The position numbers and the translations under genes were made by a program. Under the pieces are notes generated by a model, which saw nothing but the letters and a program-made list of their open reading frames with translations, made no database searches and was not told the DNA's origin. DNA of 64,000 nt from Takashimella koratensis (Eukaryota > Basidiomycota > Tremellomycetes > Trichosporonales > Tetragoniomycetaceae). Shown here in pieces: positions 54,967 through 59,211 of the stretch (within the stretch, counting starts at the first letter, position 1; each line of letters begins with the position of its first letter). The stretch is from NCBI GenBank assembly GCA_003116875.1, contig BCKT01000013.1, forward strand, positions 620,001-684,000. Direction: 5' to 3'.

Positions 54967-57900
54967 ATGTCTGGCGGGTCTACACCTACCGCTATCTCAG
55001 AGCCCGAGCTCGTCGCCAACTCGGCTGACGAGCGGGTCCCCTGGGTCGTCCAAAAGTATGGCGGAACGTCAGTTGGCAAGTCGCTTGACAGTATCACCCG
55101 CATCGTTGAGTGAGTCTACTCGGAGTGGTCTTGGCCTTCACGCCTTCTTCTTCCCTGGCTACCTCCCCTTTCTCATTCCTCCCTTATCCTTGCTGGTGCC
55201 GTTTCGCTGTCGATTTCGAGCGCTCCGAGCAGTCCAAGCTGACCACCTCACCCATACCCCAGATCTTACATCCCAAATAACCGAGTCGCGATCGTCTGCT
55301 CCGCCCGGTCGTCGCACACCAAAGCACTTGGCACCACCAACCTGTTGCTTCAAGCTTCTCGCGAGGCTCTCCAACCCGCCGCTGCATCGGGGGGCACCGC
55401 CTCTTCCCCTCGCCCTTCTGCTTCGGGTTGGCAGACGCCTTTTTTCCCGAAACGTGTCGGTTCCGGATTCTTCAACCGAGACCAGTCGCTCATGTCGTCT
55501 GTCTCGTCATTGCGTGACCTCGAAGGGAGCAACAACAATGGGCGTTCGCAGTCCCCGTCGCCGTTTCAGCCCTCGGGCCGATCTCGCTCCCCCACAGCGA
55601 CCAGCCCGACCGGCCAAGGTCCGGCGGAGGTGTCCGCCGGTGGAGCGGAGACGCTCGGCGAGAGCGCACCGTTCCACGAGACCGTCGACAAGATCAAGCA
55701 GGGTCACATGGAAGCCGCACTCGCCACGCTTAAAGCCGGCCCACTCAGAGACGAACTCATGCAGGAGATTGACAACGACTGTGAGAACCTGAGGAGCTTC
55801 CTCTTCGCCGCGCAGGTGAGTCATCGCTCCGATCTCTAGCTTGCTGTCCCTATATGCCTTTGAGAACACTGGGTCGGGATGGAGGCTGATTAGTCACGCA
55901 GATCATCGACGAAATCTCGCCAAGGAGCCAAGATTCGATCGTTGGTACCGGCGAGCGATTGGCGTGCAAGATTGTCGCCGCGGCCCTTCGAGATAGGGTG
56001 AGTTGGGGGAATTTGTTACCCTGTTCTCCTTGTCCGCCAGGACCTAGCGCTGACGGTTTCTGCCCAGGGCGTCGACTCTGAGCTCGTCGTTCTCGACAAC
56101 ATTGTGGACGCTGCGATGCACGCTGCGACCGAGGGTGCCGTCATCGGTTCCGGCGACCAGGGTGTCGCCCAGCTCGACCAGAGCTTCTACGACGAGCTGT
56201 CCAGGCGCCTTGGCGAGCGCATCCGCGAATGCGGCACTCGCGTCCCCGTTATCACTGGCTACTTTGGTCCCGTCCCCGGCTCTTTGCTCGCCCAGATCGG
56301 CCGTGGATACACCGACTTGTGTGCTGCGCTCTGCGCCGTCGGCCTCGCTGCTGCCGAGCTTCAGGTGTGGAAAGAAGTCGACGGTATCTTCACTGCCGAC
56401 CCACGTAAAGTCCCCTCTGCTCGACTTGTCCCTTCCATCACCCCCGACGAAGCCGCCGAGCTCACGTACTACGGAAGCGAGGTCATCCACCCGTTCACGA
56501 TGGAACAAGTCATCCGAGCCAAGATCCCGATCAGGATCAAGAACGTTGAGAACCCCAAAGGTTGCGGAACGATCATCTTGCCAGATGGAGAGTTCCCCGT
56601 CGGACTGGATACCGCCGCACCGAAGAAGGACGAGAGCAGTCTGGAGGATAAACTTCCGACGGCTGTCACGATCAAAGACCAAATTGTCGTGCTTAACATC
56701 CACTCGAACCGAAAGACTATCTCCCATGGTTTCCTCGCGCGTATCTTTGGAACCCTTGACCGAGCGGGCGTCGTCGTCGACCTCATCAGCACCAGTGAAG
56801 TTCATGTAAGTGACTTGTGGTCTGCTTCCTCACTATCACACCAATGGTGTAACTGTACCTCTCCAACAATCGTTTCCCTCTAATTGAGCCTCGCTGACAG
56901 TCCCGCTTAGGTGTCCATGGCGATGCAAGACTTCCACAACAAGAAACGCCTCGAGCGACTGGTCAAAGACTTGGAGAAGATTGGTGATATCACTATCTCA
57001 AGCGACATGGCCATCTTGTCCCTCGTTGGTCGAAACTTGCGCAACGCGATTGGTTCGGCAGGCCTCATGTTCACCACGCTCGCCAAGGCTAGCGTTAACA
57101 TTGAAATGATCTCTCAAGGTGCCAGCGAGATCAACATCAGCTGCGGTGAGTGATACTCACCTTTGACCGTGACCCCGACCTCGTCTACCCAGGGTTCACT
57201 TGATTTCCCTCTTTGCTGGACAGTGGACAGGCTCTGACACTTTTGCTTGTACTCAACAGTGATCGAGAACAAGGACGCAGTGAGGGCGCTTAACGTAATC
57301 CACGACGCCTGCATCGAACAACACGGTCGCCACCTCTCCGCCCCTGTCGTTCCGGAGCCTCAAGCCCCCGCCGTTGCCGTCGCCGGCGCCAAGACCGGCG
57401 GTCGTTCCAAGGCCCTCTCGGTCGAGACGATCAACCAGTCCGTCCTCGAAGTCGAGTACGCTGTCCGTGGTGAGATCGCTGTCAAAGCCGATAAGCTTGA
57501 ACACGATATCGAGAACGGAAACGCTTCTTCTTTGCCGTTTGATAAAGTCGTATTCGCAAACATTGGGAACCCGCAGGCTAAGCACTTAGACCAGCGCCCG
57601 CTCACTTACTGGCGACAGGTGAGTTTGCAATGTCCACTCTTCCAGTCTCCCAGTCTGGCTCTCAAGTGGCCAAGCGAACTGGGGACGCGGTGGCTGTGAT
57701 TTGATAAATACTGATGAGTACAGGTCTTGTCGCTGGTCGAGTACCCGGATATCTTGCAGAATGCGATTGCCGAACAGCTCTATCCGTCAGACGTGATCGC
57801 CAAGGCGTCTCAGCTGCTCGATGAATTCGGGTCGGTCGGCGCGTACACTCATTCCAAGGGTTCGTTGGCGATCCGCAAACGCGTCGCTCAATTCATCAAG

Positions 57901-59211
57901 CGTGAGTAGAAATTTCAGTTCCGAAATTTGGTGCAGGGTCAAGGGACGATTGAACTGACGAATGGAACAGAGCGCGACGGATGCGAGGCCGATCCCGAGT
58001 CAATCTACCTGACGACCGGCGCGACCCAGGGCGTGGCGATGATGCTTGGTCTCGCCCTTCGACCGGGAGACGGCTGCCTCATCCCGATTCCCCAGTACCC
58101 CTTGTACACTGCGACACTGGCGCACGTTCAAGCCCAACCGGTACCCTACCACCTGTCCGAATCGGCTGGGTGGGCGCTCGACGTCTCGGCTCTCAAGCAG
58201 TCCATCGCCACGGCTCGTTCCAATGGATCCATCAAGTCCCTCAAAGCCCTGGTCGTCATTAACCCCGGTAACCCGACGGGCTCGTGTCTCACCGAACAAC
58301 AGATCCGGGACATTCTCCAGATCGCATACGACGAATCTCTCCTTGTCATTGCGGACGAAGTTTACCAAGCCAATATCTATGACCACGAGAAGAGGCCGTT
58401 CGTCAGCTTCAAGAAAGTCTTGAGCACCATGGGTGATAAAGTAGCACAAGCGGTGGAACTGGTTAGTTTCCATTCAATCTCAAAGGGGATGAGTGGAGAA
58501 TGTGGGAGAAGAGGAGGGTACTTTGAATGCGTCAACTTTGACCCAAAAGTTATGGACATGGTCTTTAAGATGTCGTCTATCTCGTTATGTCCTCCCGTCT
58601 CTGGCCAGGTGAGTTTTGTCTTTTACGTTTTCTTATTCCTCTCATGCCTTTTCCTTCCACTGTCTTTCCTTCATTTTCGTGGCCCTTGCCAACCCTATGT
58701 CTTTTAGATCGGCGTCGACCTACTCGTTTCTCCCCCTCAACCCGGTTCTCCATCCTACGACCTCTACGCATCTGAACAAAAGACTATTCTGGACGGACTC
58801 CGAGACCGGTCCAAGTTCATGTCGGCAGCATTCAACGCGCTTCCAGGGATCTCGTGTCAGCCTGCCGAGGGGGCCATGTACCTCTTCCCGAAGCTTGACT
58901 TGCCCAATGCCGCCAAGGAAGCTGCGAAGAAGGCTGGGAAGGACGCCGACCAGTTCTACGCTCTGGAGCTATTAAGTGAGTCAGCAGGTCGCCGACATTT
59001 CTTTCCCGCCCCATGCCTCAAGAAGATCTACGAGTAGGCTCGCTAACGTGATACAGATGCTACGGGTATTTGCGCCGTCGCGGGTACTGGATTCGGTCAA
59101 GAAGATGGTACTTTCCACCTCCGAGTCACCGCACTCGTTCCCGGTGTTGAAGAGTATACCGCCAAGATCGAGACTTTCCATCGAGAATTTATGAAAAAGT
59201 ACTCGTCGTGA
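54967..59211 (+). CDS. Aspartokinase-alanine aminotransferase fusion protein
   Basis: Ten exons (54967-55109, 55263-55815, 55902-55997, 56068-56805, 56911-57145, 57260-57618, 57724-57901, 57971-58608, 58708-58975, 59057-59211) join in one frame of 1120 residues. Residues 1-610 are a fungal aspartokinase: KYGGTSVGKS at 30-39, a Ser/Pro insert of about 75 residues near 85-160, PVITGYFGPVPGSLLAQIGR, EVDGIFTADPRKVPSARLVP, then ACT repeats with VHVSMAMQDF and SQGASEINISC. This enzyme phosphorylates aspartate, the first step to threonine, methionine and isoleucine. Residues about 610-638 form an Ala/Pro/Gly linker. Residues 639-1120 are a full alanine aminotransferase: LEVEYAVRGEIAVKADKLE, VINPGNPTG, IADEVYQANIYD and the PLP Lys939 in SFHSISKGMSGECGRRGG. 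Exon 6 itself carries the end of the kinase, the linker and the transaminase start. No Met lies between residues 576 and 791. Confidence 0.9.

Follow-up and report, generated by a model that had tools for sequence, protein, structure and literature searches.

The 64,000-nucleotide stretch of Takashimella koratensis DNA analyzed here (the window; contig C13:620001-684000 in a host genome of 25.1 Mb and 24 contigs) carries, at 54967-59211 on the forward strand, a single gene in which the reading frame of an aspartokinase (AK) continues into that of an alanine aminotransferase (ALT). The gene has 10 exons and 9 introns, and its spliced frame of 3363 nucleotides (1120 codons plus stop) contains no internal stop. 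The introns are 69-153 bp long; eight have the donor GTGAGT and one GTAAGT, and the acceptors are AG. Exon 1 (54967-55109) holds the start codon and the AK motif KYGGTSVGK, and the protein begins MSGGSTPTAISEPEL... AK continues through exon 2 (55263-55815), which includes a Ser/Pro-rich insert (about residues 85-180), exon 3 (55902-55997), and exon 4 (56068-56805), where the catalytic core (GRGYTDL, WKEVDGIFTADPRKV) is followed by the start of the first ACT domain; exon 5 (56911-57145) encodes further ACT stretches. The fusion junction is in exon 6 (57260-57618), where the second ACT ends, a linker follows (residues 607-638, 32 amino acids; 57313-57408, derived by hand from the exon table), and ALT begins. 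The rest of ALT is encoded by exon 7 (57724-57901), exon 8 (57971-58608; core motifs NPGNPTG, ADEVYQ, and SISKG), exon 9 (58708-58975), and exon 10 (59057-59211), the last with the C terminus and stop codon, all on the forward strand. From family knowledge, we take Lys939 of SISKG (codon 58483-58485) to be the lysine that binds pyridoxal phosphate (PLP).

Pfam assigned five families to the window protein, every one above its cut-off: AA_kinase (PF00696) at residues 224-423 (113 bits; cut-off 24.9), ACT at 484-535 (37.1 bits), ACT_7 at 540-604 (40.6 bits), and ACT_9 at 546-605 (99.3 bits; cut-off 27 for each ACT family), and Aminotran_1_2 at 725-1095. The AA_kinase match probably begins late because of the Ser/Pro-rich insert, which lies downstream of KYGGTSVGK at about residue 30; the counterpart of this insert in the Vanrija relative P0001 (residues 100-172) has a predicted local distance difference test score (pLDDT) below 50 in the predicted structure. 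The AK half aligns with solved aspartokinases, namely, the threonine-sensitive Methanocaldococcus jannaschii enzyme and an Arabidopsis enzyme, and the relatives P0001 and P0002 score 317 and 321 bits against TIGR00657 (cut-off 208.7). The ALT half (residues 639-1120; 482 amino acids) matches barley and human alanine aminotransferases from end to end (query positions 3-480 and 2-481 of 482), as a full-length class I aminotransferase fold nearest to ALT. In the predicted P0001 structure, the fold matches solved ALTs (44% identity to barley 3tcm in the structure match), and the solved chains closest to the ALT half are ALTs, not aspartate aminotransferases. The fusion model has a predicted template modeling score (pTM) of 0.51, which leaves the placement of the AK and ALT halves relative to one another undefined. 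An initial annotation, made from the sequence, had described 10 exons joined into 1120 codons for a whole AK with ACT region and a whole ALT; the Pfam domains and the end-to-end matches agree with it.

The same annotation had argued that the junction depends on no doubtful splice and that the second enzyme has no start of its own, and both arguments hold up. ACT end, linker, and ALT start share one exon, the frame has no stop, no Met codon occurs between residues 576 and 791, and intron 5 (57146-57259) contains no ATG. Because ALT begins at residue 639 and the next Met is at 791, a free start would cost the enzyme about 150 residues. An internal start for a free ALT is excluded by this Met-free stretch and by the relatives described below, 10/10 of which lack Met in the linker and the first 60 ALT residues. 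Retention of intron 5 was considered as a route to a free AK, but no clean AK would result: Cys588 would be followed by two extra residues and a stop, and the second ACT would be truncated. The linker is 32 residues long here and 13-39 in the 10 relatives. By eye, the 11 linkers have no motif in common and no 2A-like NPGP, and linker residues 605-621 of P0001 have pLDDT below 50 in the predicted structure.

Is this architecture found in other fungi? A search with the whole protein scored 7992 candidates and found 250 proteins, 120 of which were listed. A look for AK plus aminotransferase in one protein, suggested in the initial annotation, found both domains together in 10 of the 120 relatives listed, with the junction at the same place and 68-71% identity to the window protein. 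Two are full length, Vanrija albida P0001 (1103 amino acids, 69% identity over 100% of the query) and Cutaneotrichosporon sp. HIS471 P0002 (1081 amino acids, 68% over 100%); the V. albida match alone is far above what chance would give. Vanrija humicola P0003 (960 amino acids, 69% over 89%) has a ten-residue gap immediately after the junction, which is probably an error of the gene model. The other seven are environmental proteins of 820-852 amino acids that start within AK and run unbroken through the ACTs, linker, and ALT. Judging by their starts and contig sizes, each of these is probably one reading frame downstream of an intron, and on this view the junction is independent of splicing in those fungi. 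AK stands alone in the listed entries of Cryptococcus, Kwoniella, Tremella, Papiliotrema, Naematelia, Dioszegia, Naganishia, and Cryptotrichosporon argae. No Trichosporon asahii AK appeared among the 120 relatives listed or in the AK-half comparison.

The ALT, AK-core, and ACT motifs are retained in all 11 fused proteins, i.e., the window protein and its 10 relatives. GRGYTDL and WKEVDG (WKEVDGIFxADPRKV) occur in 11/11, and K[YF]GG[TS]SV occurs in three (window, P0001, and P0002), the other eight entries being cut at the N terminus. On the ALT side, S[ISTV]SKG, NPGNPTG, ADEVYQ, and GECG[RK]RGGY are present in 11/11 fused proteins and in 18, 18, 18, and 17 of 18 free ALTs, respectively. H[LFM]R[VATC]T, a weak motif, is found in 11/11 fused proteins versus only 12/18 free ALTs. 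Fused copies keep 135 of the 141 near-invariant ALT columns.

Some other long models also turned up among the relatives. P0022 (source "merc"; 919 amino acids) has two ALT-like units in tandem. In P0049 (Blastosporella zonata) and P0119 (Tephrocybe sp.), at 1344-1350 amino acids, AK precedes a ChAPs/TPR protein; both models lack the AK tail GPWLF/Y that P0086 and P0101 have, which suggests two adjacent genes merged by annotation. P0054 (Tulasnella sp. 330) joins AK to a CPSF-like protein, and P0086 (Calocera viscosa) and P0101 (Phenoliferia psychrophenolica) have long N-terminal extensions; these three are probably merged gene models as well.

The initial annotation had also proposed searching the rest of the genome for separate copies, and this search detected one free ALT and no second AK. 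All six genome matches of the AK half (6/6) fall within the fusion gene, the sole AK detected in this genome. The broad family PF00696 has two more matches, on contigs C9 and C11; a search with the AK protein does not detect them, and they probably encode amino acid kinases of other kinds. The ALT half found the fusion gene and a second locus, C9:996211-998020. Weaker matches on C3, C1, and C11 (22-30% identity; PF00155 gave 11 matches) are likely other aminotransferases. The C9 gene, once spliced (L033:4029-6024), has four exons and encodes 550 amino acids, a free ALT without an AK part; over 479 positions, this ALT and the fused one share 62% identity. The introns of the C9 gene (3/3) share alignment column and phase with three of the four fused-ALT introns, so the two ALT copies are related through DNA and not through a processed transcript. 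Between the host and Cutaneotrichosporon HIS471, the fused ALT is 66% conserved and the free ALT 72%.

The N terminus of the host free ALT (MLGRSPLFRSTLPFLRQSPQPFTSVTM...) has six K/R and no D/E in 62 residues. It looks like a mitochondrial presequence as judged by composition, not by a predictor, and a second in-frame Met at residue 27 may offer a second start and possibly dual targeting. Among 11 free ALTs with a cleanly separable N terminus, some are presequence-like (e.g., P0128, P0139, and P0144) and others have none (e.g., P0121, P0125, and P0132); thus, a presequence is not general in the ALT family. Cryptotrichosporon argae has two free ALTs, P0141 and P0144, one with an Arg-rich presequence-like start (MFARRASALAPVVRARALSTTR) and the other without, beside an unfused AK. 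The longest contig given for each is 1,378,581 bases, so both are probably on one contig.

Phylogenetic trees of the two halves bear on the origin of the fusion. In a 51-row ALT tree, all 11 fused copies group in one clade (100/98), sister to 29 free Tremellomycete-type ALTs, and the host free ALT groups with the two free ALTs of C. argae (100/99). In this first tree, the outgroup was not on one side of a branch and three rows were misplaced. In a second tree (45 rows, with the long outgroup rows removed), the outgroup was on one side, the fused clade was again recovered (99/97), and the picture was unchanged. A single fused-ALT clade makes one origin of the fusion likely. An origin of the fused copy by ALT duplication within Trichosporonales was rejected by the approximately unbiased (AU) test, with p of 8.9e-5 for the four Trichosporonaceae-type free ALTs, 1.1e-6 with the Cryptotrichosporon group added, and 0.0025 for this larger set once the long outgroup rows were removed. 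Given these rejections, the fused copy seems to predate the divergence of the free Tremellomycete ALTs sampled, unless it accelerated in a way that the model misses. In the AK tree (42 rows), the host AK, the C. argae AK, and ten other fused AKs form one clade (98/98), within which the positions of the host and C. argae sequences are not settled. Judged by its proteins, the host belongs to Trichosporonales or is closely related to that order, near Cryptotrichosporon. NCBI taxonomy places Cryptotrichosporon in Tetragoniomycetaceae, Trichosporonales, and among the listed hits, C. argae has its two free ALTs and a 648-amino-acid AK, a single deposited gene model. The simplest account, resting on that one model where C. 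argae is concerned, is one fusion before the Vanrija/Cutaneotrichosporon group split from the host lineage, after which C. argae would have lost the ALT half.

Together, the gene structure and its conservation, the single ALT clade, the motifs and folds kept, and the copies found in the genome point to one gene for a bifunctional enzyme: a fungal AK carrying regulatory ACT domains, joined by a flexible linker to a complete PLP-dependent ALT, the two probably fused once and working as independent tethered units. We give this reading a probability of about 0.72. The fusion is probably a single event, dating to the common ancestor of the Trichosporonales-type carriers or earlier, in which an extra ALT copy, minus its own start codon and presequence, would have been joined to the end of the AK gene. 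A single polypeptide would fix the AK:ALT ratio, expression, and compartment, with the two units presumably acting independently on one tether. From the missing presequence, we infer a cytosolic location for the fused ALT (alanine + 2-oxoglutarate <-> pyruvate + glutamate), which may then rise and fall with a threonine-controlled AK gate of the aspartate family. The separate ALT gene would serve the mitochondrion or both compartments, i.e., a division of labor by place. The initial annotation had suggested, as a possible logic, that the fusion could put aspartate-family and pyruvate/glutamate flux under shared control. PMC5364695 and PMC4117449 describe the yeast AK Hom3 as inhibited by threonine, with FKBP12 involved, and the ACT motifs kept in the fusion suggest that its AK may be under similar control.

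Several points weigh against this reading. Alanine transamination is not adjacent to aspartate phosphorylation, so any benefit of the fusion is not readily apparent. AK stands alone in Cryptotrichosporon argae, the species with the ALTs closest to the host free ALT, so either the fusion is dispensable there or the gene model is incomplete. The AK tree by itself does not prove one origin (fused-only clade, 52/9), and the free-ALT presequence was judged from composition alone. In the fused copies, six near-invariant ALT columns are altered in at least 4/11 and Ser786 is Thr in 11/11. Finally, yeast ScAlt2 retains its catalytic residues yet has no ALT activity, according to PMC5960717; retained motifs are therefore no proof of ALT activity.

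What else could such a gene mean? It is unlikely, though worth considering, that the ALT half is dead or altered and serves AK as a structural or regulatory domain, e.g., by holding dimers or sensing alanine, glutamate, or PLP. The free ALT that remains in the genome leaves the fused copy free to change, the fused ALT is somewhat less conserved (66% versus 72%) and has 10 diagnostic columns, and ScAlt2 shows that an ALT paralogue can be inactive (PMC5960717). Against a dead domain, all six tested ALT motifs occur in 11/11, 135 of 141 near-invariant columns are kept, and the predicted fold agrees with that of solved ALTs. We give little credence to a single translation product that is then cleaved at the linker to release AK and ALT as two proteins. 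The linker is of low confidence in the predicted structure and of variable length (13-39 residues), and so may be accessible, but neither a common motif nor NPGP was seen by eye in the 11 linkers, and a product that is routinely cut would not need a fusion maintained across the whole clade. The chance that two adjacent genes were merged through an assembly error, a missed stop, or a wrong splice is vanishingly small. Apparently merged AK models do occur in other basidiomycetes (the ChAPs/TPR and CPSF-like cases above), and the V. humicola model is imperfect right behind the junction. However, the junction here lies in a stop-free exon and is found again in 10 relatives, seven of them environmental and probably single frames, with no Met kept at the junction in any of them; relatives with the same junction contradict an artifact.

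Another idea, which overlaps the bifunctional reading so that the odds of the two are not exclusive, concerns the chemistry of the ALT half. It could make aspartate from glutamate and oxaloacetate and pass it to AK, as a fusion of consecutive steps, which we regard as improbable. The Ser786-to-Thr change is fixed in all fused copies, and the loop around it is presumably the PLP-phosphate loop. According to PMC5960717, which cites Duff 2012, barley ALT can also produce aspartate, with about 10% of the efficiency that it has for alanine. On the other side, we saw no sequence change that points to aspartate specificity, the nearest solved chains are ALTs and not aspartate aminotransferases, and the two halves have no defined placement in the model, which shows no channel. 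In a broader form, equally doubtful, the ALT half would have shifted toward, or be employed for, producing aspartate right at AK or adjusting the glutamate/2-oxoglutarate ratio there; amino-group supply would be coupled to the committed step toward threonine, methionine, and isoleucine, and ACT-bound threonine could control both halves.

The surroundings of the gene were also scanned. A single TGACTC (Gcn4-like) lies 117 bases upstream of the fusion-gene ATG, to which we attach no significance, and the full TGACTCA/TGAGTCA is absent within 400 bases of the ATG. Open frames on the reverse strand at window positions 52874-54694 contain C2H2-zinc-finger-like stretches (by eye) and end near the start of the fused gene; this zinc-finger-like gene may be divergent and have a promoter region in common with it. 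The bacterial promoter and terminator scan gave signals at shuffle level only, and tRNA and Rfam scans of the window had no matches.

AK catalyzes the first step in the synthesis of threonine and methionine, and here the only AK detected in a genome is tied to an enzyme of alanine metabolism, a join kept in a set of fungi to which Vanrija and Cutaneotrichosporon belong. Literature abstracts describe Vanrija and Cutaneotrichosporon as oil-producing and occasionally clinical yeasts. Must alanine/glutamate transamination and the threonine pathway be linked in amount or place in the fungi that carry the fusion? Databases name the fused proteins either "aspartate kinase" only or "alanine transaminase" only, both names occurring, and each one-half name hides the other half of the protein.

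Known fusions offer a frame for comparison. ThrA, MetL, and the plant AK/homoserine dehydrogenases carry both enzymes in one polypeptide, and like the fusion here, they combine an N-terminal AK with ACT and a complete C-terminal amino acid enzyme; the difference is that the partner here is an aminotransferase outside the AK pathway. The AK/diaminopimelate decarboxylase of some bacteria (NF006515) is an AK fused to a PLP enzyme, as here, with a different second enzyme. Neither a homoserine dehydrogenase nor a decarboxylase domain is among the five Pfam families of the window protein, and NF006515 matches P0001 and P0002 only in their AK halves, at 198 and 210 bits, far below its cut-off of 802. 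NCBIfam has models for these two fusions; among the best 25 of the 86 (P0001) and 87 (P0002) matching families, none is for AK with an aminotransferase. To our knowledge, the known fusion partners of AK are aspartate-family enzymes.

The initial annotation knew of no AK fused to an alanine aminotransferase, and our literature search, with most subscription papers beyond its reach, likewise gave no report of one. In the parts available, PMC3901274, which describes an AK/homoserine dehydrogenase in a diatom, does not have an ALT fusion among its fusions, and PMC7026411 and PMC12820176 do not mention a fused AK or aminotransferase. Each half also has stand-alone counterparts. Among the listed entries, the AK half shares 71-76% identity with Kwoniella AKs and 69-75% with Cryptococcus AKs, fungal enzymes of the Hom3 type that lack a C-terminal ALT. 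The ALT half matches ALT1, GPT2, and barley AlaAT over the full length, with the same motifs, and the fused copies form a clade of their own without start codon and presequence. What is new is thus the partner: the known habit of AK of fusing to a second enzyme appears here with one from outside its pathway.

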